Of a stretch of 32,835 nucleotides of DNA, positions 11,843 to 28,916 are shown in pieces. A program made the position numbers and the translations under genes. The notes under the pieces are model-generated. The model did not search any database and had not been told where the DNA came from. It saw only the letters and a program-made list of their open reading frames with translations. Source of the DNA: a virus; the IMG/VR virus record IMGVR_UViG_3300030419_004138, positions 1 to 32,835 of that record; one strand, 5' to 3'. Numbering within the stretch: the stretch's first letter is position 1; every line of letters begins with the position of its first letter.

Positions 11843-12010
11843 ATGAGAGACAGAGATATAGCCCGTCGTTTTATTAAAGATAGTAATATCTTTCAGACGG
11901 GCGATTTCTGTCCAAAGAATTTGCAGACAGCAAATATTAGCCTAATTGATAGTGGTTATGAGACACTGGTCGAGCAATTAGGGAGTTTAACCAAATGGAC
12001 AGGAGTTTAA
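11843..12010 (+). CDS. 55-residue hypothetical protein containing a nested hairpin
   Basis: Begins MRDRDIARRFIKDSNIFQTG and ends TKWTGV two bases before the amidotransferase ATG. Its ribosome site is weak (GGTCGTTTGAG), and it may depend on coupling with the upstream gene, whose stop is 12 bases away. The RNA in its first third can form GCCCGTC (11861-11867) with GACGGGC (11896-11902), holding AAAGATA (11876-11882) with TATCTTT (11887-11893) inside. That strong fold means the stretch could instead be a regulatory leader, so the gene call is moderate. Confidence 0.45.
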   Translation: MRDRDIARRFIKDSNIFQTGDFCPKNLQTANISLIDSGYETLVEQLGSLTKWTGV

Positions 12011-12012
12011 CT

Positions 12013-13185
12013 ATGTGTGGAATTTATGGAATGGCGAAATCACCAGACAGATATTCAAGACAAGAGTTTAAAACCGTCAAGAATATTATGCGAGATTTAG
12101 CAGTAGACAGTGAGACCAGAGGGGCTCATTCGTCAGGTATCGCAAGTATTGGAGATACAGTCGAAATACATAAGTCTCTACTACCAAGTAGTAAATTCGT
12201 AGACAGTCAAGGCTACATAAGAGCAATCAAGTCAATAAACAAAGGAACTAATATATTATTAGGACATACTCGTTTTGCGACAGAAGGAGCTATAACAGAA
12301 AACAATGCCCACCCGTTTAAGGTTGGAGGAGTTGTTGGAGCTCACAATGGTTGTGTCTATAACATAGACCAAATGCAGGAGAAACTTAATAAGTTTTGTC
12401 CAGTAGATAGTCAGTTAATCTTTAAGTCAATAGATAAAGCAGACACTATTCAAGAGGCGATTAAGCATTTTGACAGTGACTTTGCTTTGTCTTTTGTCAA
12501 GGACAATAACAAAGTTCTGAATTTGTGTCGTGAAAACAATAGACCACTCTATTGTGCCTATGTTTCTGAATTAAGAACTCTATTCTATGCGAGTGAGGGC
12601 GACTTTTTAGACGAAGCACTTTCATCAGCTGGAATTAAGAATGTTGAGGTATATCAGTTGTCTAAAAACAACTTATATAGATTTAACATTGACGAGTTTA
12701 ATTCATTCCAAACAAATGTGACTAAAACAGAGTTTGAGTATGATAGTAGAGTAGTGAACTATGTCGCAATTAACAACTACAATTCTTGGTCAAATGATGA
12801 TGACGACGATAAGTCTATAACCTCATCAGCAGTCACTCGTTATTATAGTCATAATAGTTATGGATATAATAATGCATTAGACTACTATGACGGAGGAGCA
12901 TTATTAGACGAGAATGGTATGGTGTTAGAGACAGTGTCTGATGATTATGTCGCTCTCAATCAAGAGAGATATGATTTAGTTGGAGTATATGGAGGAAATC
13001 CATCTGACTGGATTTTTGACGAACATCAGGACTGTTGGTATTATGTGTTTGAAAACGGCGAAATGTGGGATTTGGAAACCGTAATTGATGAGTTAAATAA
13101 TTACGGCGATAAATATCTGACATTAGACGAATTAGACCTAATCAATGCTGACATAAATCACAATCAGAATAACATAGGAGAATAA
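12013..13185 (+). CDS. class II glutamine amidotransferase (Ntn-hydrolase)
   Basis: The enzyme releases ammonia from glutamine with an N-terminal Cys nucleophile. I chose ATG at 12013 because it puts Cys at residue 2 (MCGIYGMAKS) and has AGGAG 7 bases upstream; an earlier ATG would bury the Cys. Motifs follow in order: RGAHSSG at residues 36-42, GHTRFAT at 84-90, NNAHPF at 97-102 and AHNG at 110-113, so the glutaminase site is complete. The domain ends near residue 220. The last 170 residues are acidic, rich in Asn, Tyr and Asp, with a run DDDDDK and no known synthetase domain. The partner acceptor domain is thus probably the amidoligase, whose gene starts 3 bases after this stop. Confidence 0.9.
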   Translation: MCGIYGMAKSPDRYSRQEFKTVKNIMRDLAVDSETRGAHSSGIASIGDTVEIHKSLLPSSKFVDSQGYIRAIKSINKGTNILLGHTRFATEGAITENNAHPFKVGGVVGAHNGCVYNIDQMQEKLNKFCPVDSQLIFKSIDKADTIQEAIKHFDSDFALSFVKDNNKVLNLCRENNRPLYCAYVSELRTLFYASEGDFLDEALSSAGIKNVEVYQLSKNNLYRFNIDEFNSFQTNVTKTEFEYDSRVVNYVAINNYNSWSNDDDDDKSITSSAVTRYYSHNSYGYNNALDYYDGGALLDENGMVLETVSDDYVALNQERYDLVGVYGGNPSDWIFDEHQDCWYYVFENGEMWDLETVIDELNNYGDKYLTLDELDLINADINHNQNNIGE

Positions 13186-13188
13186 GTT

Positions 13189-15105
13189 ATGCCGACAGAA
13201 AATACAGACAATCCTAACTTACAACCTCCCGAAAATGATGTATCATCAAGGTTGGACGAGATGTTTATTCGAATGACTACTCCGACTGATGATGATATTC
13301 AAACCGAAACGACAAATCAACAAGTGGACGAACAAGACGACAATTCTTTTGAATGTTGTTCTTGTGAGAACAATTGTGATTTGTCTGAGGAAATGGAGGA
13401 CGAGAGAGGAAATCCTATCTGTGAGGACTGTTTTGATGAGACTATGTTCTCGTGTGAACATTGCAGTGGTGTCTATAATAACCAGACTGCCTATGGCACT
13501 AACGGTAATGGACAGCTCTGTGAGGAATGTTTTTACGACGAATACTTTCACTGCACAGGTTGTGGTGAGCCTCATCATTTAGACAATTGTTGTCACGACG
13601 AATACGGCGACGAGTATTATTGCGAGTATTGTTGGGACGATAATAGCAGTTACCAATGGACAGTCTGGTCTAATAGAGAGGTCGCAGAGAATAACAACTT
13701 TGTTAATCCGAGACAGGACAGATATTGCCTACATAATGGCACTATGGTCAAGTCTGATGATATGACGAATAACAAAGATAGTTTCTCTGTAATCCCGTCT
13801 AAACGATATATGGGTGCAGAAATCGAGTGCAACGATAACGGCAGTGTTTCACACTCCGATATGCAACGAGGACTGAATTCAAGTATAGACAGGACGAGAC
13901 TACCTCTAACTGAAACTGAGTTAGCAGGAGATAGACCTATGTTCAAGTCGCGAACTATATCTGTTACAACAGACGGCTCTATTACAGACGAGGAACATCC
14001 GTATGGGTTTGAATATGTCTTTGCACCTCGCCGAGGCGATATACAGGCAAGAGATTATCAGACAACAACGGAGTTCCTAAAAGATAGTAACGGCAGTTAT
14101 ATTAGTCATAGATGTGGATATCATTTACATATAGACACAAGAGATTATGACTGGTATCATTTTGCAGTTCTTACTTTAATGGTCAAGTTAATCGAGCCTC
14201 ACATATATAGTTGGGTTGCTCCGTCAAGGAGAATGTCAAGGTGGTGTGCTCCCGTCAGCCAAAGATTAGAGGACTTTGGTTGGGTCAGAGATAGAGACAG
14301 TTTTATGGAGTTCTATTATGACAACGGGTCTTATCGTAACGAGAAATATCACGACAAGAGATATCACGGCTACAACTTGCATAGTCATTTTCAAGCTAAT
14401 GCAGGAACGGAGTTAAGATATCATTCAGGCACACTTAATCCTGACAAGATGATACACTGGTCAATAGTTTGGGGACAGATTATTGACAAGTGTTACGAAA
14501 TGTCTGAAACAATGAAACTAAATGGAGTATTTGACGACCAGTTGAATAGTTCTAAATTTCTGACATCTTTAATAACTCCGAATGTTAAGGGATTTGACAC
14601 AGAGACATTAAAGTCTTTGAACAAACACTTTAACGGACGAGTTGGGATAGGAGAAAGAGATAGGACTAATATTGCAGAATATAGAGATATGTCTGCCTCT
14701 TTGTCAAGAGCACTTGGTTTCAAAAATCAGGACGGAATTTATCGTGTTGATTGTTTAATAAACAAGTTGTTACAGGCAAAATCGCAACAGCCGTGTTTGA
14801 CTATGACAAATATGTTTGACATATTTGATATACCTCAAAAAACGAGGCAATTCTATTTAGATAGAGTAGCCGAGATTGACGGTAGGGACAAGAGACGAGA
14901 ACATATAAGTAATTGTTACTCGTCTGTTACCAGTTTCTGTGAATTTGACCCGAACATATTTGAGTTTAAATATATGGACTGGTTAGAACACAGAGTGCCG
15001 ACATTGGAGGATTTAGACGGTCAATACTATGACAGTTGGTCAAGGAATAGGTTAGTTCCGACTGAAATAGTAGACTATATCCAGTTAGGCAACTATCTTA
15101 CATAG
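13189..15105 (+). CDS. amidoligase (GS-like COOH-NH2 ligase) with N-terminal zinc-finger array
   Basis: Residues about 208-430 match the Amidoligase_2 family, which joins a carboxyl to an amine with ATP in the glutamine synthetase fold. GxExE (GAEIEC, 209-214), an acidic VTTDGSI then GFEYVFAP (E275), CGYHLHID (309-316) with two His, SRRMSRW (346-352), and GTELRYHSGTLN (R410) appear in the family order. Residues 55-150 hold six or more CxxC-type pairs (CCSCENNC, CEDC, CEHC, CEECF, CTGC, CEYCW) plus His, a LIM-like or treble-clef array. The N-terminal 50 residues are acidic and disordered. AGGAG precedes the ATG. The gene is last in the operon and followed by a terminator. Substrates are unknown; the zinc array may bind a protein or nucleic acid target. 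Confidence 0.85.
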   Translation: MPTENTDNPNLQPPENDVSSRLDEMFIRMTTPTDDDIQTETTNQQVDEQDDNSFECCSCENNCDLSEEMEDERGNPICEDCFDETMFSCEHCSGVYNNQTAYGTNGNGQLCEECFYDEYFHCTGCGEPHHLDNCCHDEYGDEYYCEYCWDDNSSYQWTVWSNREVAENNNFVNPRQDRYCLHNGTMVKSDDMTNNKDSFSVIPSKRYMGAEIECNDNGSVSHSDMQRGLNSSIDRTRLPLTETELAGDRPMFKSRTISVTTDGSITDEEHPYGFEYVFAPRRGDIQARDYQTTTEFLKDSNGSYISHRCGYHLHIDTRDYDWYHFAVLTLMVKLIEPHIYSWVAPSRRMSRWCAPVSQRLEDFGWVRDRDSFMEFYYDNGSYRNEKYHDKRYHGYNLHSHFQANAGTELRYHSGTLNPDKMIHWSIVWGQIIDKCYEMSETMKLNGVFDDQLNSSKFLTSLITPNVKGFDTETLKSLNKHFNGRVGIGERDRTNIAEYRDMSASLSRALGFKNQDGIYRVDCLINKLLQAKSQQPCLTMTNMFDIFDIPQKTRQFYLDRVAEIDGRDKRREHISNCYSSVTSFCEFDPNIFEFKYMDWLEHRVPTLEDLDGQYYDSWSRNRLVPTEIVDYIQLGNYLT

Positions 15106-15128: not shown

Positions 15129-15159
15129 AGTGGACGGCGAAAGTCGTCCACTTTTTTTT
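15129..15159 (+). terminator. intrinsic terminator of the amidoligase operon
   Basis: AGTGGACGGC (15129-15138) and GTCGTCCACT (15143-15152) pair around a GAAA loop, followed by T to 15159. Its GAAA loop and the trailing TTTGTCTA resemble the terminator at 10.1 kb. Confidence 0.9.
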
Positions 15160-15197
15160 GTCTAAAAATTTTTTTAAAAATCCACAGGTTTTTCTGT

Positions 15198-15305: not shown

Positions 15306-15436
15306 TGAGGTGAATAAGGTTATGAACAACAACAATTTAAGGCTGAAAAAGGCAGTCGCAGGTAACCAATCCTGTTTACCCTTTATAATTAGATTGTATG
15401 CTTTCGTGACTACTGGCTGGCTACCTATTCACCTCA
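15306..15436 (+). ncRNA. structured leader RNA, copy A (possible riboswitch)
   Basis: P1 is TGAGGTGAAT (15306-15315) with ATTCACCTCA (15427-15436), then AGGT (15317-15320) with ACCT (15423-15426) after one bulged A. P2 is GGCTG (15341-15345) with CAGTC (15353-15357) and the loop AAAAAGG. A 28-nt core (15358-15385) follows that starts GCAGGTAACC and ends TTTACCCTTTA. In it GGTAA can pair with TTACC, and CCTTT can pair with the AAAGG of the P2 loop to make a pseudoknot. TGGCTGGC (15414-15421) may contact CCAATCC of the core. The ribosome site of the 47-residue gene is 8 bases after P1. It is the best evidence in the window for a regulatory RNA because a second copy keeps the pairing with other bases. 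Confidence 0.65.
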
Positions 15437-15457
15437 TATTTTTAAAAGGAGATTTTA

Positions 15458-15601
15458 ATGAGTTGGAAGGTAGCAAATGCAATTAATAGTCTAATAGGGC
15501 TTTTGTCTAATAGCGATAGACTTGGAAGTTATGAAGTTGGAGAAATTAAAAGAGTAATAGAATTATTAACAAGTTCAGACAAAGAATTGGACAATGTTTA
15601 A
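15458..15601 (+). CDS. 47-residue hypothetical protein
   Basis: Starts MSWKVANAINSLIGLLSNSD behind AAAAGGAG, 6 bases upstream. It is a short, mostly helical, acidic-ended protein. Its TAA overlaps the next ATG as TAATG. It is the first gene controlled by the structured RNA copy A. No family recognised. Confidence 0.6.
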   Translation: MSWKVANAINSLIGLLSNSDRLGSYEVGEIKRVIELLTSSDKELDNV

Positions 15602-15675
15602 TGGAAATTATATTTATGTCAGTATTTGGAGTATGGTTAACATATATAGTTATTAAGGAGAAAATAAAACTATGA
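15601..15675 (+). CDS. 24-residue membrane peptide
   Basis: MEIIFMSVFGVWLTYIVIKE followed by four residues: one hydrophobic helix and a basic end. It overlaps its neighbours on both sides (TAATG upstream, ATGA downstream), which supports translation by coupling. Small one-helix peptides of this kind are common in phages; no function can be assigned. Confidence 0.5.
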   Translation: MEIIFMSVFGVWLTYIVIKEKIKL

Positions 15676-15893
15676 ATGACAAAATAAATAAAATAAAAAA
15701 AGAAATAAAAAATACCATTAAGGACTTAGAAAAAGACTATGGTATGTCTTACGACGATATGTATGATTGCTATTTAAAAAATGACTATCCTTTGGACTAC
15801 CATATAGGAGTTAGTTATGTAGAGGGAATGGAAAGAGCAGTAAAACTATATGAAATTTTTATGAGAATGGAGACAGAAAATGAAACAAGCTAA
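15672..15893 (+). CDS. hypothetical protein, 73 residues
   Basis: A Lys-rich N-terminal helix (KINKIKKEIKNTIKDLEKDY) and a Tyr and Asp rich centre, ending in an acidic helix. AAGGAG lies upstream. The 3' end overlaps the next start by 14 bases. Not recognised. Confidence 0.6.
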   Translation: MNDKINKIKKEIKNTIKDLEKDYGMSYDDMYDCYLKNDYPLDYHIGVSYVEGMERAVKLYEIFMRMETENETS

Positions 15894-16062
15894 AAACTAT
15901 GAACTGAAATATGTAAAGAAAGACTTTGCAAACTTTTTAGACTTTTATTTAAGTCAAACTATGTCGTTAGAACAAATGGACGACTGGGCAAAACGACTAC
16001 AGAAAAAATGGGACTTTAAAAATGAAGGAGATGAGTATGAAGATGAACTTAAAAAAGGATAG
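15880..16062 (+). CDS. hypothetical protein, 60 residues
   Basis: Begins MKQAKNYELKYVKKDFANFL, with GGAG 7 bases ahead inside the preceding gene. It is helical and charged with an acidic end. Its 3' end overlaps the next gene. Not recognised; probably a small early protein. Confidence 0.55.
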   Translation: MKQAKNYELKYVKKDFANFLDFYLSQTMSLEQMDDWAKRLQKKWDFKNEGDEYEDELKKG

Positions 16063-16228
16063 AGAGAAATTAGCAAAAGATATACAAGGCTATATTATGA
16101 CGTTAGTTAAGTTTTTAAGAGAAGACTTGGGTTATGACTTTAAACTAACTCATAATGGAATAGCGTCAACAATTAGAAAATCAGACACATTTGAAGCTCC
16201 GTCTGATGACGGCTGGGAGGAAAAATGA
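16037..16228 (+). CDS. hypothetical protein, 63 residues
   Basis: Four in-frame ATG codons lie at 16022-16045. I chose 16037 because GGAG is 6 bases before it. The protein is MKMNLKKDREKLAKDIQGYI followed by a region with VKFLREDLGYDFKLTHNG and an acidic tail. It overlaps the next gene as ATGA. Not recognised. Confidence 0.55.
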   Translation: MKMNLKKDREKLAKDIQGYIMTLVKFLREDLGYDFKLTHNGIASTIRKSDTFEAPSDDGWEEK

Positions 16229-16512
16229 GTAAAGTAGACAAAACTTGGAGTATAAAACACGAAGGACATTTAAATAAAAATAATATTATATTTAAAGACG
16301 AAAAATATATTGAATTAGTAAAAGAAATTAAAAAAGTAAATGATAAACTAATGGAGAATAGAATGGAAACATCTAAAATTATAAAAGGATTAATGAAATT
16401 AGGAGACATATTAGATAATATTGAAATGGGAGAACAAGAACTTGAATATTATCAAAATGTAATATGGAACGCAGTCAATTTGATAACAATAGAGAAAGAA
16501 ACTATAAAATAA
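16225..16512 (+). CDS. hypothetical helical protein, 95 residues
   Basis: A coiled-coil-like, Lys and Glu rich protein (ELVKEIKKVNDKLMENRMET, then a helical MKLGDILDNIEMGEQ). GGGAGG precedes the ATG, which overlaps the preceding stop. It is the last of a five-gene coupled string. Not recognised. Confidence 0.6.
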   Translation: MSKVDKTWSIKHEGHLNKNNIIFKDEKYIELVKEIKKVNDKLMENRMETSKIIKGLMKLGDILDNIEMGEQELEYYQNVIWNAVNLITIEKETIK

Positions 16513-16528
16513 AGTTTTAAAGTTTTTG

Positions 16529-16558
16529 TTGACAAAGGTATGTATTTGTTGCTAAATT
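16529..16558 (+). promoter_or_regulatory. rightward promoter before the ribbon-helix-helix gene
   Basis: TTGACA (16529-16534), 18 bases, then TAAATT (16553-16558). The predicted transcription start is within a base or two of the ATG at 16564, so the first gene may be made from a leaderless message. Confidence 0.45.
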
Positions 16559-16563
16559 CAGGT

Positions 16564-16746
16564 ATGAAAAACAAATTTCAAACATCTTTTGTTCTCGATA
16601 GAGAATTATGGATAAAGTTTAAAACAAAAACTGCAAGAGAGGGCGTTTCTATGAAAGAAACGCTGAATAGATTGATATTAAATTACGTTAACAACAAGGA
16701 GAGTAAAAATGCCAGCAGTTGGTTTCATCTACCCAAATGGAGATAA
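16564..16746 (+). CDS. ribbon-helix-helix DNA-binding protein
   Basis: A 60-residue protein starting MKNKFQTSFVLDRELWIKFK, then a second helix SMKETLNRLILNYVNN. A beta strand followed by two helices, with the basic Lys and Gln in the strand, is the ribbon-helix-helix plan of Arc, MetJ and CopG, dimers that bind DNA operators. An upstream in-frame ATG at 16540 exists, but it lies inside the promoter spacer. It is likely a small repressor of the replication genes or of its own promoter. The 3' end overlaps the nuclease gene, whose ribosome site lies within it. Confidence 0.65.
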   Translation: MKNKFQTSFVLDRELWIKFKTKTAREGVSMKETLNRLILNYVNNKESKNASSWFHLPKWR

Positions 16747-17590
16747 AGTAAGTTTTGACGACGTTAAGAAAGGTAAAGTAGACGTAGAAAAAATGGGTAT
16801 GACTTTGCCTACGCTTATGGAAATGTCTAAAGAGAGAGACGTAAATAGAAAGCCTTCGACTACTGAATTGCTAATCGGGACGTGCGAGGCTTACTTAAAG
16901 AGAAGAGAAGAGTATTATATAAATCCTCAAGATAGAGCATTCTCATTAGCAGGAACTATGCACCACGCTCGATTAGAACAGCATTCAGACGACAGACATT
17001 TGCTTGAAGAAGAATTAGAAGGTTTTAATATAACGGGAATAGTAGACTTGTATGACAAGGAAACAAAGACGTTGATAGACTATAAGAATACAGGCTCTTA
17101 TAAATGTTCTCAATTATTAGGTATGACTTATAATAAAATACCTTGCCCGTCGGGAGCTAAATATAAATCGTCTGGTAAGTGGGGTAAAAAAGGTAGCCCT
17201 AAAATGGTTAAGGATTGGTATAGAGACGAAGGATTAGCAGACTACGGAGATTGGGGTTGGCAGCTAAACTGGTATAGATATTTATTAGAGAGAAAAGGGC
17301 AAGAGGTAGATAAAATGTATATACAAGTTACCTTGAGAGACGGAGGAATTATCGTTGCGAGAGAAAGAGGACTTGATAGAAATATATACCTTATAGAAAT
17401 ACCAAAATATGACGATGAAGTATTGGAATATAAATTTTTAAGTGCAAGAGATAAATTAGTTAAAGCATTAGAATGCGACAATTTACCTGAAAAATGCACG
17501 ACAGAACAAACTTGGAACGGACGAAAATGTGAGGCTTTTTGTGAAGTCAGACACTTGTGTCCATACAACAATGGGAGTATAAATGGTTAA
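16709..17590 (+). CDS. Cas4/RecB-like PD-(D/E)XK exonuclease with Fe-S cluster
   Basis: 293 residues. The nuclease core has GTMHHARLE (His86), ITGIVDLYD (Asp113), LIDYKN (Asp124-x-Lys126) and a QxxxY helix (Gln185, Tyr189). Cys59 and the C-terminal Cys274, Cys278 and Cys284 (RKCEAFCEVRHLC) are spaced like the four ligands of the Cas4 and AddB iron-sulfur cluster. Such enzymes resect DNA ends to make single strands for annealing. It is followed by an annealing protein and SSB, the expected partners in phage recombination. AGGAG precedes the ATG; its end overlaps the annealing gene. Confidence 0.8.
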   Translation: MPAVGFIYPNGDKVSFDDVKKGKVDVEKMGMTLPTLMEMSKERDVNRKPSTTELLIGTCEAYLKRREEYYINPQDRAFSLAGTMHHARLEQHSDDRHLLEEELEGFNITGIVDLYDKETKTLIDYKNTGSYKCSQLLGMTYNKIPCPSGAKYKSSGKWGKKGSPKMVKDWYRDEGLADYGDWGWQLNWYRYLLERKGQEVDKMYIQVTLRDGGIIVARERGLDRNIYLIEIPKYDDEVLEYKFLSARDKLVKALECDNLPEKCTTEQTWNGRKCEAFCEVRHLCPYNNGSING

Positions 17591-18227
17591 GAAAGAAGAG
17601 CCTATGACAATAGGAGATGCATTGAAGCAATCAAATTTACCAGATTTGAGTGACGGTTTTTACGAAGCTCAGCTTTCTGATAAACACCAATTTGTTTCAG
17701 AGCAATCTACACCTCAAGATGTAGTTAAAAGTAGAAATGGTTTTGACTATGTAGACGAAGGATATATGCGTTGGCGTCTAAACCAACACTATCCAATTTG
17801 GTCTTGGGAGGTAGTTAAGTATGAAACATTAGGAGATAAGGCAATAGTAGTGCACGGACGTCTAAAAATTATGGACGAGGGAATTCCTCGAAGTTTTGAC
17901 TCTGTCGCTGCTCACAGAATAGCTGTATCGAGAAGTGGTGGTGGATATGTCGATTTAGGTAACGACTTAAAAGCTGCAAATTCAGATGCTTTTAAAGTTG
18001 CGGTAAATAGATTGTGTAATGTCGCAGATGATGTATATAGAAAACAATATATTGATAACACTCTTTCGCAAGAACAGTATGATATATTGGTTACTAAAAT
18101 ATCTCAAATGAGCACAGAAGACGCAGATAAAATGGACGCTGCTTTAAAGTCTGGAAAAATAAATAAAGGCAATTACGATAAAGTGTTGTCTAAACTAAAA
18201 GTGACTAAGGAGAACGAAAATGAGTAA
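17583..18227 (+). CDS. single-strand annealing protein, Rad52/Sak-like
   Basis: A 214-residue protein of the size of phage annealing proteins. The core reads YVDEGYMRWRLNQHYPIWSW, then strands VVHGRLKIMDEG, then helical DLKAANSDAFKVAVNRLCNV leading to YRKQY. This is the pattern seen in Rad52/Sak-type proteins, where SDAFKxAxxR follows the strands. It would coat and pair complementary single strands. It sits between the nuclease and the SSB, and its ATG lies inside the nuclease gene. The last 55 residues are charged linker. Erf is an alternative family. Confidence 0.65.
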   Translation: MVKKEEPMTIGDALKQSNLPDLSDGFYEAQLSDKHQFVSEQSTPQDVVKSRNGFDYVDEGYMRWRLNQHYPIWSWEVVKYETLGDKAIVVHGRLKIMDEGIPRSFDSVAAHRIAVSRSGGGYVDLGNDLKAANSDAFKVAVNRLCNVADDVYRKQYIDNTLSQEQYDILVTKISQMSTEDADKMDAALKSGKINKGNYDKVLSKLKVTKENENE

Positions 18228-18780
18228 TGTTAATGAATTACTAAATGACATTGATAGCAACGTAGCTTATTATAATCCTTCAGAAGATACGACTGGAAAT
18301 AAATCGTATAAGATAGAAGAAGGAACATATGAAGCAGTTGTTAGCAAACTTATTATCAAGAAAGATATAGTTGTAAAGAATAGCTATCTTAGTGATATAT
18401 TCGAAGCAACATATTCTATTGATGACGAGAGATATCCTGAATTGAAAGGAAGAGAAGTTAAATCTAAAGGTTATTTTAGATTTAAAGCTCCTGACAAAGA
18501 AAAATATCCAAATCTTGAAGATAATCAAGGTAATAATAAAGGGTATATGATTTTTGTCGAGGCTTGTGGTTATAATATAGATAAAGACGAGCAAGGAAGA
18601 TATCTTCTACCTTACATAATGGAGTCTGATATTGCAGGTAATCCTGTTAATATCAAAGTTGTTCACGACAAGTGGACTGGAAGTGACGGAGAGGAAAGAG
18701 TAACTCCTCTTGCAGTCAATGTTTTCAAATCAAATAGGGAAGTAAGTAAACCTTTGAAAGAAGACGACTTACCTTTTTAA
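18220..18780 (+). CDS. single-stranded DNA-binding protein
   Basis: A 186-residue beta-rich protein (YEAVVSKLIIKKDIVVKN, YFRFKAPDKEKY and so on) that ends LKEDDLPF. This matches the acidic tip DDIPF of bacterial SSB, a hook for partner proteins. The body is an OB-fold candidate but lacks a clear match to bacterial SSB, so it is probably a phage version with the same task. It follows the annealing protein, whose stop it overlaps, and AGGAG is upstream. Helicase at 20.9-22.3 kb carries a very similar tip. Confidence 0.7.
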   Translation: MSNVNELLNDIDSNVAYYNPSEDTTGNKSYKIEEGTYEAVVSKLIIKKDIVVKNSYLSDIFEATYSIDDERYPELKGREVKSKGYFRFKAPDKEKYPNLEDNQGNNKGYMIFVEACGYNIDKDEQGRYLLPYIMESDIAGNPVNIKVVHDKWTGSDGEERVTPLAVNVFKSNREVSKPLKEDDLPF

Positions 18781-18783
18781 AAT

Positions 18784-19017
18784 ATGAGCTATAATATTAC
18801 ATTAGATAAAGAGCAAATAAAGGCTTTAATTGAGATGATAGAAAAGCATAGATGTGAAGGAGAGAATGAATTGTGTTCAAATCTTAGAACGTCTATAAAA
18901 AATCAATATCAGTCTCAATACAGAGAAGAACAAGAAGATGACTCTATGACTGAAGAAGACGTCATTGAAAATTCTAAAGCCGCATTTGGTCCAAATCATT
19001 GTGACAGTTGCGATTAA
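18784..19017 (+). CDS. hypothetical protein with C-terminal CxxC, 77 residues
   Basis: Begins MSYNITLDKEQIKALIEMIE and ends HCDSCD. The middle is acidic and Gln rich. Three bases separate it from the SSB stop and no good ribosome site is seen, so coupling is likely. Its stop codon ends exactly where the P1 helix of RNA copy B begins. Not recognised. Confidence 0.55.
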   Translation: MSYNITLDKEQIKALIEMIEKHRCEGENELCSNLRTSIKNQYQSQYREEQEDDSMTEEDVIENSKAAFGPNHCDSCD

Positions 19018-19150
19018 TTATATTCCCTTCTCACAATACGCTTTAAAAGGAAGCGGGCAGGTAACCAATCCTGTTTACCCTTTAATACGTATAAACAAAT
19101 ACAATTTTTGGTTGGCATTAAAAATTTTATTAATAGAGAAGGGAGTATAA
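19018..19150 (+). ncRNA. structured leader RNA, copy B (possible riboswitch)
   Basis: P1 is 19018-19032 with 19136-19150, 15 bp with one wobble; its core is CCCTTCTC pairing with GAGAAGGG. P2 is CGCTT (19039-19043) with AAGCG (19051-19055) and the loop TAAAAGG. The 28-nt core (19057-19084) is identical to 15358-15385, and TGGTTGGC at 19109-19116 matches TGGCTGGC of copy A. In this copy the P1 right strand contains GGGAG (19141-19145), the only ribosome site of the next gene, so folding should block translation. Confidence 0.65.
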
Positions 19151-19158
19151 AATATATT

Positions 19159-19386
19159 ATGAAAATTTCTAAATGGAATAATATTATGAATTCATTCCAA
19201 GACTTAATGGGTTGGAATAAAGGAATGACAGAAGTAATTGTAACTAAAAGGTTAGCCTTTGGTAAAAAAGGTATAGAAGAAATTTGTGGACGGGAAGAAA
19301 AATATCTCGTCCATATTCTTCGAAAAAGGTATAGGGAGATAAATGATATTGAGAAACAAAAAGAAAATTCTCAATCATCTAACTGA
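19159..19386 (+). CDS. hypothetical basic protein, 75 residues
   Basis: The ATG at 19159 is 13 bases after GGGAG, wider than usual, so the ribosome site may also act through RNA folding. It begins MKISKWNNIMNSFQDLMGWN and is Lys and Arg rich in the second half (LVHILRKRYREINDIEKQ). It overlaps the next gene by 44 bases. Not recognised. Confidence 0.5.
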   Translation: MKISKWNNIMNSFQDLMGWNKGMTEVIVTKRLAFGKKGIEEICGREEKYLVHILRKRYREINDIEKQKENSQSSN

Positions 19387-24269: not shown

Positions 24270-27200
24270 TTATCCTATGTATTCTTTTTCTTCTCTTTGT
24301 TCTTTTGTTTTTCTCTTCCATCTTTCTACAATCGAGTTCCAACTAATGTCTTCTGATATGATTCTGAGACTAGGATATACGCTCCCGTAAACCCTGTTAA
24401 ATTCTTGAACTTGTTTAGCAGCTTCTTTGTGTCTTCCTTCTTCAATTAAATCTCTTGCGTAATCAAGTATATCTCGTTTTCTTGCTCTTGCTTGGTCTTT
24501 TTTCATTCCCTCTGTTTCTACCGTTCTTCTTACGAGCTTTGATACTGGTCCACCAGCTACAGGAGCTCCAACAGCTATTGCTTTTCTAATAGGAACATCC
24601 CATTGGTCAGGGTAGTGTGTCTGCATACTTGTTGCAAAACTATCATAAGCTCTTGTCATTCTCATAAAATCGTCTATAACAACAGGTTTTAAGAAGAATT
24701 TAATTGCATTAGCAGGTTCTTCATCAACCATAATGTCTGAAAGAGCTCCGAATGAACCAACTGCTCTTGCTGCATTAACTAAATCTTGCCATTGTGGACT
24801 TTCTTTTAACATTTTTTGCCTTGCACTTCTTCCGTAGTATTGCTCTTTGCCAGTAATCAATTCATTTAACTCTTCTTTTGCCCACATTACAAATTGACCT
24901 CCAAAATATCCTCCTACTGCTAAATTTAATATAGGGAAAACATTTCCTTTTACCATCTCTCTTTCAATTGTCTGGCCAGCAAACATTGCTTGTCTATATC
25001 CAAACCTTTTAAACAGAAGAAGAGGTTTCATAAAAGGGTCATTAAATAAAAATGGGTCTAACATAAAATTTCTTTGCAGCTGACTTTCAAGGGAAAACCT
25101 TTGCATTGCTCTTAATACCTTTAATCTCATTTTAGCTTCTGCTGGGTTTGATTTCATATCTCCATATTTTCTATTTATAATAGCATCTGCGTGTTTTTGA
25201 ACATCTTTCCAATTAAGTCCTAATCTTTCTAATTTATTTTTTATCCAAGCTTGTCTTTTATTTTTTATAATAGGCATACCATCTAATAATCCTCTACTTT
25301 TTCCAGTTAAAGCTCTTGCTGCTTTAACAATAAATTGTTCTGTAGTAGCTGCAGCAATCTGTTGATTGACAGAGTTTACAGCACTAAATGGTTTAGCAAA
25401 GAATTTTGTCATAGCTGTAATTCCGTCCCTATATCCCTGCTCTCCTTTTAATATGTCTCTTACAATCTCTTTAATAGGTGCTTCAGTTTTTAACATTCTT
25501 GCTGTACCTATTTGTAGAAAAGCATCATTCGTTAAATATTCGTCCCAAGCAGTCAACATAGTAGCTCCACTTCTTTTTACAAATTCTCTTGTTTTTGCAT
25601 CCCTAACTAAGTTAAATGTAGATTTAAAAGCTAGTCCATTACCAAAACCCAAAGCTGTAGATATAAATGTTTGAGTTAAATTAGGAATAACAGCATACCC
25701 TAAAGATATCTTTGCTGTCATTTCAAGATTAGATAGAGTTTGAAAAGATTTTGCTAGAGGTATTTGTTTATCAAAATTAATTGTACCAGTCAATACTTCC
25801 ATTACTAACTGCACTGCATCTCTTTCAGTTTGAACGCTTAAAGGAAGCTTTTGTCCTCCCAAAGCTTTTGGTAACTGGAAACCGAGTCCGTGCATTTGTG
25901 CATCGTGAGGTATCATTTCTTTTAGTTTTCTAAAATACTCATTACCTCTACCAAATGTCTTTGTCATTTCTATTCTTTTGGTAGCTCCGTTTAGGTATTC
26001 TCCCATTAAACGTATTACATTTGTTTCCATCAATTCTGAATCTATTGCATTCATTAAATTTTGACTTGTAACCTTTTTTGCTCCAAGTTTCCTAGATTTT
26101 TCTAAAGGAGCAAATGTTTTAAACACTCCATTTGTATTATTCATTTGTAATAATGCCCAAATGTCAAATTCGTTTGGAACAGGCCCTGTAGCTTCTTTGG
26201 TTTTTAATAAATCTTCTGCTGCTTGCCAAGCTTTTGTTATATATCTTGCTTGTAAGTCTTGTGGATTTTTTCTAGCTCTTTCTTTAAAGGGTTCAATTTT
26301 AGCTCTAAGCTCTGAATTTAATTTATTTAATATGTCTGACCTATCTTTATACATACTAGAATCTAAAGATAAACCTACATCTTTAGTAAGAGTGTCAACT
26401 TTTTCATCAAAAGTTTTTAGAGTGTCAAATAATATATCCAACACCTCTCTTCTAAACATTCTAGGCAAGTAACCAGGAATATATTCCGCAAGACTTAAAC
26501 CTGACTTAGATGCATCCGCCCATATCTCGTCTGTTACTAAATCTTTTAAATCTCTTATAAAATCTATTCTCTTTCTAATATTTTGCTTTTCTTTATGGTT
26601 TTTTGTAAAAAGTAAATCTTTTTCTAATTTTTCTAAATATTTCTTATGTTGCTTTTGTCTTCCAACTTTTTTTCCTAGTTCTTGCATTTTATTTAAGTCT
26701 TCCCAGGCAGTAATTTGTGTTTTTCCTGCTTTATTCGTTTTAACTCCTCTTAAATAATTTGTCCAAAATTCGCTCTTATCTCCCTCGTTTAAAACTTGAG
26801 ATAATGTAGTTAATCTATCTGAAACCTTCTGCATAGTGGAAAGATTAACATTCTGTAAAAGTCTTAATGTTTTTTTAGCTGCAGGAGTTTCTAATTGGTC
26901 ATATGCTGGCTTTACTGCTCCCATCATTCTAGAGAAAGGACTACGGTATTTTCTTCCAGTAATTTGTTCTAAAAGATTAACATTGTACTCATCTTTATGT
27001 GTTTTCATCCAGGTTCTTATATTCCTTGCAGCTTCTAAATGTTTTGAAAGGTAAAACAATTCAGAATCACTCATCTTATCCACACCAGGAACTTTCCCTT
27101 CTTTTAACATTTTAATCCATTTTTGATTTCCATAAGTATAAGCAACGTCTTCAAGGGCATAAATTAAATCTTCTGGTATAAAATCATTCTCAGACTCTTT

Positions 27201-28916
27201 CATCATTCTTGCAATATTTTTGACGCTTTCTCTGTGAACTCTTGCCATAGCATCTTTCTTTTGATGTTTTGATAAATCTTTTGCTATTTCTCTCTCAAAG
27301 GCAGTCATTCTATCTTTGTTTGCACTCCAGAATCTAAAAAATAAATTTGTATTAAGCTCATCTAATTCAAACATATTTCTTCCCTGTCTGATTTTAACAG
27401 TTTTGGATTGTCCAGATTTATAACTTTCAGATATTAACTGAACATCAAAAGGAGCTATATCTTGTACTTGACCTAATCTTTTTTCTTCTCTTTCAAGTAT
27501 TTTCCTATCACTATCTCCTTTAATTTTAGCTTCTTTAGGGTCAAAAGCTACTCTTCTACCTCTAATTCTTACTTCTAAATGCTGCCCAGAACTGTCAGAA
27601 TATCGTTGAAATTGTTTCTTTGTATAGTCTAAAACAACTTTTCCAGTATTAGGGTCTACAACCTCAACCCTTGCAACTCCTTTTTTCGATGTATGTCTAG
27701 TATTATACCAACTTAAGTCAATCATTATTTTCTTACCTATTTGATGGTATGAAATATTTTGACCAGAAGGGTCTTTTGAAACTTTAACTATTTCTTGTTC
27801 TCTAGCAGCACTCTCTAATAATGTAATTTCTTTACCTCGTGAATCTACTACTTTTACTTCACCTACTTCATCTTTAAATTTTAAATCACGCATTTTTCTA
27901 TATCTTCCTATAGCTGCGCCTGGAACACTTAATGCACCAACTATTCCTGCTCCAATAGCAAAATCTTGAAAAGTAGGAGGTCTTCCTTCTAAAACTACTG
28001 GAAAAGCTCCACCGAAAGTAAGTCCTTCAGAAAGAAGTCCTAATCCTTTACTCCCGCTCCAATCTCCCTTGGGAACCCATCTAAATGCTTGAGAAGCTCC
28101 TCCAAGAAACCCTAGAGCTCCCATTTTAACAAAATCTTCAGGTCTTGATTTTTTTAATATTTGTCCAAAAGCATTAGCCCAAGTTGTTTCGTCATCTTTT
28201 CCCCTAAGTTTCTCCAAATCTTTATTGCTTGCAATCATATCATCTCTTGCGTGATTAGCAGCCTCCCAAAGACCGTGATGTGTCCCAAGAATAAATCCCT
28301 GGACTCCTCCTTTTTGAACAACATCATCAACTATTCCTCTAGCTCTTTCTATTGCTTTTCTTTTTATTGAGAAAGGTTGATTTACAAAATCTTTATCTTT
28401 TTTAGCAAGCATTGTTGCAACTCTTCTTTTTGCAGCAGTTCCTATAACACCTTTTGATGCTGCTCTTGCAGCTACACTACCAACTCCTCCTGTTCCAATA
28501 AGTAATCCCAAATCTTCTTTTGATGCGAAGAAAGATAACATACCAGCAACAATATCCCTTGTTAAGCTTTGAGGAGCATCGTCAATATTATAATAAGATT
28601 CTCCAGTCATTATTTCGTGAATCATTCCTCCAATCGATTGATTGTAGGCTTGTTTGTACCACGCTGGCATTGAATCCCAAAAACCTTCTCTGTCTGCTAT
28701 TTTTTCACTTTCAGACTGTTCGTTACTAGGTTTATAGTAATTTGTATTGCCTACAAATAGAGAAGCTAAATCAGGGTCAAGAGAAAAGTTTGGAGAATCT
28801 GGAATAAAATCCTCTTCTTCTTGTGAGATGCTAGGTAGGCCAGTTGGAGTAACTTTATCTTTCTCTTGAAATAGAAAATCTAAATCGTTGTCCCATATGT
28901 AATTATTATCTGGCAT
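24270..28916 (-). CDS. giant 1548-residue virion protein (likely DNA-ejection protein)
   Basis: The largest gene. It begins with an acidic disordered head. Residues about 120-180 and 260-340 have Gly and Ala rich hydrophobic segments (LGLLIGTGGVGSVAARAASK, KMGALGFLGGASQAFRW, IGAGIVGALSVPGAAIGRY). The region near residue 1060-1090 has SLGYAVIPNLTQTFISTALG, and about 1350-1380 FPILNLAVGGYFGGQFVMWA. Long helical charged stretches separate these, and no enzyme motif is clear. Such proteins are internal virion proteins that help form a channel, or large polyvalent proteins injected with DNA; I recall an LPD38-like look in the last third. A tape measure is less likely because of the many scattered short hydrophobic segments and the transglycosylase-like neighbour. 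The ribosome site is AGG before ATG. Confidence 0.6.
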   Translation of the reverse strand: MPDNNYIWDNDLDFLFQEKDKVTPTGLPSISQEEEDFIPDSPNFSLDPDLASLFVGNTNYYKPSNEQSESEKIADREGFWDSMPAWYKQAYNQSIGGMIHEIMTGESYYNIDDAPQSLTRDIVAGMLSFFASKEDLGLLIGTGGVGSVAARAASKGVIGTAAKRRVATMLAKKDKDFVNQPFSIKRKAIERARGIVDDVVQKGGVQGFILGTHHGLWEAANHARDDMIASNKDLEKLRGKDDETTWANAFGQILKKSRPEDFVKMGALGFLGGASQAFRWVPKGDWSGSKGLGLLSEGLTFGGAFPVVLEGRPPTFQDFAIGAGIVGALSVPGAAIGRYRKMRDLKFKDEVGEVKVVDSRGKEITLLESAAREQEIVKVSKDPSGQNISYHQIGKKIMIDLSWYNTRHTSKKGVARVEVVDPNTGKVVLDYTKKQFQRYSDSSGQHLEVRIRGRRVAFDPKEAKIKGDSDRKILEREEKRLGQVQDIAPFDVQLISESYKSGQSKTVKIRQGRNMFELDELNTNLFFRFWSANKDRMTAFEREIAKDLSKHQKKDAMARVHRESVKNIARMMKESENDFIPEDLIYALEDVAYTYGNQKWIKMLKEGKVPGVDKMSDSELFYLSKHLEAARNIRTWMKTHKDEYNVNLLEQITGRKYRSPFSRMMGAVKPAYDQLETPAAKKTLRLLQNVNLSTMQKVSDRLTTLSQVLNEGDKSEFWTNYLRGVKTNKAGKTQITAWEDLNKMQELGKKVGRQKQHKKYLEKLEKDLLFTKNHKEKQNIRKRIDFIRDLKDLVTDEIWADASKSGLSLAEYIPGYLPRMFRREVLDILFDTLKTFDEKVDTLTKDVGLSLDSSMYKDRSDILNKLNSELRAKIEPFKERARKNPQDLQARYITKAWQAAEDLLKTKEATGPVPNEFDIWALLQMNNTNGVFKTFAPLEKSRKLGAKKVTSQNLMNAIDSELMETNVIRLMGEYLNGATKRIEMTKTFGRGNEYFRKLKEMIPHDAQMHGLGFQLPKALGGQKLPLSVQTERDAVQLVMEVLTGTINFDKQIPLAKSFQTLSNLEMTAKISLGYAVIPNLTQTFISTALGFGNGLAFKSTFNLVRDAKTREFVKRSGATMLTAWDEYLTNDAFLQIGTARMLKTEAPIKEIVRDILKGEQGYRDGITAMTKFFAKPFSAVNSVNQQIAAATTEQFIVKAARALTGKSRGLLDGMPIIKNKRQAWIKNKLERLGLNWKDVQKHADAIINRKYGDMKSNPAEAKMRLKVLRAMQRFSLESQLQRNFMLDPFLFNDPFMKPLLLFKRFGYRQAMFAGQTIEREMVKGNVFPILNLAVGGYFGGQFVMWAKEELNELITGKEQYYGRSARQKMLKESPQWQDLVNAARAVGSFGALSDIMVDEEPANAIKFFLKPVVIDDFMRMTRAYDSFATSMQTHYPDQWDVPIRKAIAVGAPVAGGPVSKLVRRTVETEGMKKDQARARKRDILDYARDLIEEGRHKEAAKQVQEFNRVYGSVYPSLRIISEDISWNSIVERWKRKTKEQREEKEYIG

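Follow-up and report, generated by a model that had tools for sequence, protein, structure and literature searches.

Pistol and other small self-cleaving ribozymes have hairpin loops that form pseudoknots with a downstream strand, and integron attC sites are folded elements adjoining exchangeable single-gene cassettes. Phages of marine bacteria carry riboswitches, such as the glutamine riboswitch of the marine phage Melnitz (PMC9004378), and the riboswitches known in phages are few (PMC9004378). The HK022 put RNA and the Bacillus EAR act in cis and modify RNA polymerase (PMC9378689). The family of phage RNAs reported here resembles riboswitches and structured leaders in having a conserved core that is enclosed by a stem of free sequence and located before genes; unlike them, it matches no Rfam class, precedes no coherent regulated pathway and has no uniform expression platform. 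With put and EAR it has in common that a structured RNA lies in early operons, in more than one copy per phage and unlinked to ribosome sites, but we found neither a similarity of fold nor downstream terminators to overcome. Compared with Pistol, it contains an extra hairpin (P3) between the loop and its partner, an enclosing stem (P1) and no Rfam match, whereas its difference from attC sites lies in conserved loops and G-U pairs, which indicate RNA, with no integrase or core sites noticed.

The window, by which we mean the whole stretch of DNA analysed, is a 32.8 kb IMG/VR virus record. It encodes a portal protein, a large terminase, a DnaB helicase and a Cas4-like exonuclease, and we therefore consider it to derive from a tailed phage, whose nearest named relatives are about 25% identical in the terminase comparison. 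A search for tRNA and tmRNA genes in the window returned none. In the early region, an amidoligase-like gene comes after a glutamine-amidotransferase-like one (11995–15105, PHROG matches), a pair that is kept 5' of the A-type RNA copies in relatives, and the late operon (24270–28916, minus strand) includes an ORF of 1548 aa. The first-pass annotation had pointed out two leaders sharing a P2 stem, a WAAAAGG loop and an identical 28-nt core, all of which can be read directly at the positions that it gave, 15306–15436 (copy A) and 19018–19150 (copy B). The features of the two copies are given below; R1 is a covariance model of P2 and P3, trained on copy B and its relatives with copy A left out.

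15129–15160, plus strand: hairpin resembling an intrinsic terminator, with T8, at the end of the amidoligase operon and just 5' of copy A, read from the sequence
15306–15436, plus strand: RNA copy A, type II, whole element; R1 matches 15339–15384 with 45.0 bits, E 4.3e-11
15306–15316, plus strand: 5' strand of P1 of copy A, TGAGGTGAATA, partner at 15426–15436; 11 bp, better than all 60 shuffles
15426–15436, plus strand: 3' strand of P1 of copy A, TATTCACCTCA, partner of 15306–15316
15332–15340, plus strand: 5' strand of P1c of copy A, ACAATTTAA, partner TTAGATTGT at 15389–15397; equalled by 4% of shuffles
15341–15357, plus strand: P2 hairpin of copy A, GGCTG-AAAAAGG-CAGTC, from the sequence and the covariation of P2 across the family
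15358–15385, plus strand: 28-nt core of copy A, from the sequence and the family alignment
15415–15421, plus strand: 3' motif of copy A, GGCUGGC (GGUUGGC in most relatives), read from the sequence
15458–15601, plus strand: ORF of 47 aa 3' of copy A, with its Shine-Dalgarno (SD) site AAGGAG at 15446–15451, outside P1
19018–19150, plus strand: RNA copy B, type I, whole element; R1 matches 19036–19083 with 72.8 bits, copy B being in the R1 training set
19018–19032, plus strand: 5' strand of P1 of copy B, TTATATTCCCTTCTC; 15 bp, better than all 60 shuffles
19136–19150, plus strand: 3' strand of P1 of copy B, GAGAAGGGAGTATAA, pairing with 19018–19032 and including the SD-like GGGAG
19039–19055, plus strand: P2 hairpin of copy B, CGCTT-TAAAAGG-AAGCG, from the sequence and the family covariation
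19057–19084, plus strand: 28-nt core of copy B, from the sequence and the family alignment
19110–19116, plus strand: 3' motif of copy B, GGUUGGC, read from the sequence
19159–19386, plus strand: ORF of 75 aa 3' of copy B, whose homologue comes straight after the 77-aa ORF in phages without the RNA at this site

The P2 strands of copy A are GGCTG (15341–15345) and CAGTC (15353–15357) around the loop AAAAAGG, and those of copy B are CGCTT (19039–19043) and AAGCG (19051–19055) around TAAAAGG. Within the core, P3 is formed in copy A by CAGG and CCTG (15359–15362/15371–15374), with UAACCAAU as its loop, and in copy B by 19058–19061/19070–19073. The proposed pseudoknot can indeed form in both copies, between the CCTTT of the core and the AAAGG of the P2 loop (15380–15384 with 15348–15352 in copy A, 19079–19083 with 19046–19050 in copy B). 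The TGGYTGGC motif stands at the distances that had been indicated, as TGGCTGGC at 15414–15421, 28 nt 3' of the core, in copy A and as TGGTTGGC at 19109–19116, 24 nt 3' of the core, in copy B. Closing stems of 14–15 bp had been claimed for both; this is accurate for copy B, with its 15 bp, but the stem of copy A has only 11 contiguous pairs, and reaches 14 when the 3 bp beyond a bulged A are counted. Folding of the single strands gave z = -3.4 for copy A and z = -6.6 for copy B relative to dinucleotide shuffles. For a 20-nt pattern of the core, the window has two occurrences, with 0.01 expected by chance at up to three mismatches.

The first relatives were found by scanning IMG/VR with a loop-plus-core pattern, which returned several groups of viral contigs, and two more pattern scans together with R1 led to 75 matches at 64 distinct loci. 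Since the collecting patterns fixed parts of the P2 loop, of the P3 loop and of GGUUGGC, the conservation of letters in the loops and in GGUUGGC is in part a product of the search, which left P1, P2 and most of P3 free. R1 recovered diverged copies in which both sides of P3 are altered (TCGG/CCGA in L154, GCGGG/CCCGC in L143 and L145), and further diverged copies, with ATAGG instead of AAGG in the loop, were recognized by eye in L149, L151 and L153, in the position that corresponds to copy A of the window. At least two phages hold two copies of the RNA each. Scanning of 1149 cellular genomes (395 + 385 + 369) yielded two GC-rich chance matches only, and a loose-pattern scan of a genome collection gave more than 100 chance matches, none with the fold. 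BLASTN of copy A, copy B and the L180 member against named phages likewise returned short chance matches only, that of the L180 member to SPbeta being antisense to a gene. Among the sequences scanned, the family is confined to viral contigs.

Members of the family share a fold composed of a P1 of free sequence, a covarying P2 whose loop (usually AAGG) is able to pair with CCUUU, P3 and GGUUGGC, within an element of about 105 to 147 nt. In the alignment to R1 (A4, 56 distinct rows), where the fitting to R1 itself favours this structure, 96.9% of the P2 and P3 cells are paired and 89 cells carry double-sided changes, compared with 24.1 ± 3.4 in shuffles and no more than 28 after sliding of the 3' partners; these slid-partner controls and the first alignment, A3, agree with the structure of A4. 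The double-sided changes occur at five of the six pairs of P2 (94.2% paired) and at two of the five pairs of P3 (100% paired), the latter closing an 8-nt loop, UAnnnARY, a pattern partly fixed by the search. P1, of 9–15 bp, is present at all 64 distinct loci, with at most one of 60 shuffles as good, and its strands have 31 different sequences among these loci; no relative was found with the core and unpaired stems. To our knowledge, structured RNA classes covarying this strongly are rare in phages. The pseudoknot between the P2 loop and CCUUU has a mean of 4.77 bp, against 3.92 ± 0.12 in shuffled sequences; its partner has been lost in L140, and in L248 (4797–4844) an ACAAGG loop together with GCUUGA after P3 keeps four of the pairs with one apparent compensatory change. 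G-U pairs are frequent (GU in 29 of 56 rows at one P2 pair and in 49 of 55 at a P3 pair), implying that the plus-strand RNA is the folded form. We are thus practically certain that the RNA family is real and under selection, as the first-pass annotation had proposed from the covarying stems.

Two layouts can be distinguished, both of which occur in the phage of the window. In type I, exemplified by copy B, a P1 mostly of 12–15 bp (in some copies 9–11) is followed by a linker of about 5 nt and P2; in type II, exemplified by copy A, P1 has 9–13 bp, a further stem, P1c, surrounds P2 and P3, and GGUUGGC adjoins the 3' strand of P1. P1c has a family mean of 15.2, against 12.1 in shuffles, whereas a P4 hairpin around GGUUGGC in type I was overall no better than shuffles. 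A tertiary pairing between CCAA of the P3 loop and GGUUGGC is conceivable: L154 (8701–8747) has CCAG in the P3 loop and GGCTGGC on the 3' side, a possible compensatory change that would pair CCAG with CUGG, but copy A, which combines CCAA with GGCUGGC, gives it no support. A scan for additional members with GGCTGGC retrieved none beyond L154 and copy A.

The statement that no known family has this pattern held up on comparison with Rfam 15 (4227 models), for which the window had no match at the gathering thresholds, while relaxed scans of the window and of nine related loci produced unrelated weak matches elsewhere and none on the element. The family is not described in the literature either, as far as open-licence papers are concerned. 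Matching no described family, it is new as an RNA family, and its mechanism may prove ordinary. Other readings of the conserved segment were rejected. A conserved peptide does not account for the core: the frame AGNQSCLP is open in copy A and in L001, but copy B offers it no start codon, and the ATGGCA frame of L122 stops inside the core. A DNA palindrome is contradicted by the G-U pairs. That the RNA supplies missing ribosome sites is unconvincing, given that type II loci often have no SD but neither do about one-third of the other genes of these phages, and it is not tied to one small helical protein family, which is present at only 17 of the 64 loci.

The RNA usually lies between two genes, in the same orientation as the early genes around it, with P1 often beginning 0–13 nt after the upstream stop codon and, in most loci, ending 6–27 nt before the next start codon. 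The genes on its 3' side encode, as confirmed with Pfam, N6_N4_Mtase, Dam and a Sigma70_r4-like protein; C5 DNA methyltransferases, GroES-like proteins and many small ORFs were recognized by sequence motifs, and a DUF5681-like protein fell below the cut-off. In the group formed by L163, L161, L180, L189, L188 and L123, the upstream gene and the RNA are constant while the single gene before the convergent late genes is exchanged, and homology ends 20–31 nt after GGUUGGC, at or near the start codon; L001, L128 and L129 present the same pattern of replacement with other genes. A-type phages have the RNA about 200 nt after the amidoligase gene, with a terminator between them in the window. In the relatives L143–L151, which have no copy B, the 77-aa gene runs directly into the 75-aa gene (TAATGG); copy B is thus an additional segment placed precisely at the junction of the two. 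Phages L140, L141 and L152, related to the window by their exonuclease, possess a B copy with an altered core, GCAGGTAnnCAATCCTG.

These arrangements, in which the RNA occupies the space from one gene's stop codon to the next gene's start codon, P1 lies near that start and the gene behind is replaced while the RNA is kept, argue for a cis-acting intercistronic or 5'-leader element controlling the downstream gene, a role to which we assign slightly less than an even chance. The conserved core would bind either a metabolite or a protein of the phage or its host, and the variable P1, folding beside the start region, would determine how far the gene or operon that follows is expressed; what follows is often an exchangeable accessory gene, for instance one for a DNA methyltransferase. 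The leader or riboswitch implied by the first-pass annotation is in keeping with the position of most copies 5' of a gene, but the genes concerned do not belong to one pathway and about nine loci (L221, L235, L247, L251, L254, L261, L266, L267 and L275) have no intact ORF directly behind the RNA; L253, L256 and L265 suggest that some loci lost the downstream gene, of which some no-gene loci keep remnants. No single expression platform is evident: neither a terminator nor a sequestered SD is common to the family, and no terminators were noticed between the RNA and the gene. As had been noted, the ribosome site is inside P1 in copy B (GAAGGGAG), but the start codon is 13 nt away and the placement does not extend to most of its relatives. 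The close relatives L141, L152 and L182 have a separate SD 3' of P1, an SD inside P1 is found in copy B, L140, L157 and L173, and across the family most type I copies have their SD beyond P1, while many type II copies have none. This lack of uniformity weakens a simple SD-hiding riboswitch and keeps in play a trans-acting RNA, an RNA acting on the polymerase and a ribozyme.

A trans-acting phage RNA would be a P1-closed domain that is cut from early transcripts and works free, for example as a decoy of a host or defence factor. The element is intact where no gene follows (the L221 group and L251), P1 closes it into one compact domain, the neighbouring genes change and at least two phages have two copies; we nevertheless consider this role unlikely, as neither a promoter nor a terminator of its own was seen, the packing between stop and start codons is tight, and several of the no-gene cases retain a remnant of the start of the downstream gene. 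Position within operons independent of ribosome sites, the presence of two copies in one early region and the conserved pseudoknotted core would also suit an RNA that works on RNA polymerase while still part of the nascent transcript, as HK022 put and Bacillus EAR do, and thereby allows read-through of early operons, and A-type copies open a long early operon just after a terminator (15129–15160 in the window; L270 and L273). Such an activity is nonetheless quite improbable: no clear intrinsic terminator was found between copy A or B and the operon end, a simple consensus scan detecting no convincing one between copy A and 22255, some copies are the last element of their operon, with nothing left to read, and no known antitermination RNA in Rfam matches.

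The presence or absence of copy B at one site among relatives and the breaks of homology between phages just behind the RNA could instead reflect a mobile or recombination element whose fold serves for spreading or for exchange of cassettes, as in attC sites. This is very improbable, because the G-U pairs indicate RNA and not a DNA hairpin, we noticed no recombinase, no duplicated target and no constant sequence at the ends, and the A-type copies of related phages keep their synteny, lying 5' of the same small genes. A build in which stems vary, unpaired letters stay fixed and a hairpin loop forms a pseudoknot may by analogy recall small ribozymes, and self-cleavage would separate the genes of an early transcript; no Rfam ribozyme model matches, and we regard this as the least probable of the readings. 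It is possible, if rather unlikely, that the family constitutes an RNA class peculiar to phages, with a ligand, a protein partner or a catalytic activity of its own, which diverse uncultured phages employ as a standard plug-in control module before exchangeable anti-host genes such as those for DNA methyltransferases. The recurrence of the family before variable accessory genes in many environmental phage contigs would reveal an RNA module shared by phages for gene control or host take-over, and the alignment makes tests of ligand binding, protein binding and cleavage directly possible.

Some further observations concern the surroundings of the RNA. A hypervariable one-gene site lies behind it in L161, L163, L169, L180, L188, L189, L123 and L260, flanked by an SSB-like small protein (...DDLPF) and by the convergent late genes, and contains different DNA methyltransferases or small ORFs in phages that are otherwise similar. 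GroES-like co-chaperonin genes (MKPLRDEVV...) are located behind the RNA in L170, L228, L242, L280 and L284. A small-protein family (LxLxxEELxxLIEMIE..) recurs in the window (18784–19014), in L162, L122, L001 and others, with the RNA nearby in some.
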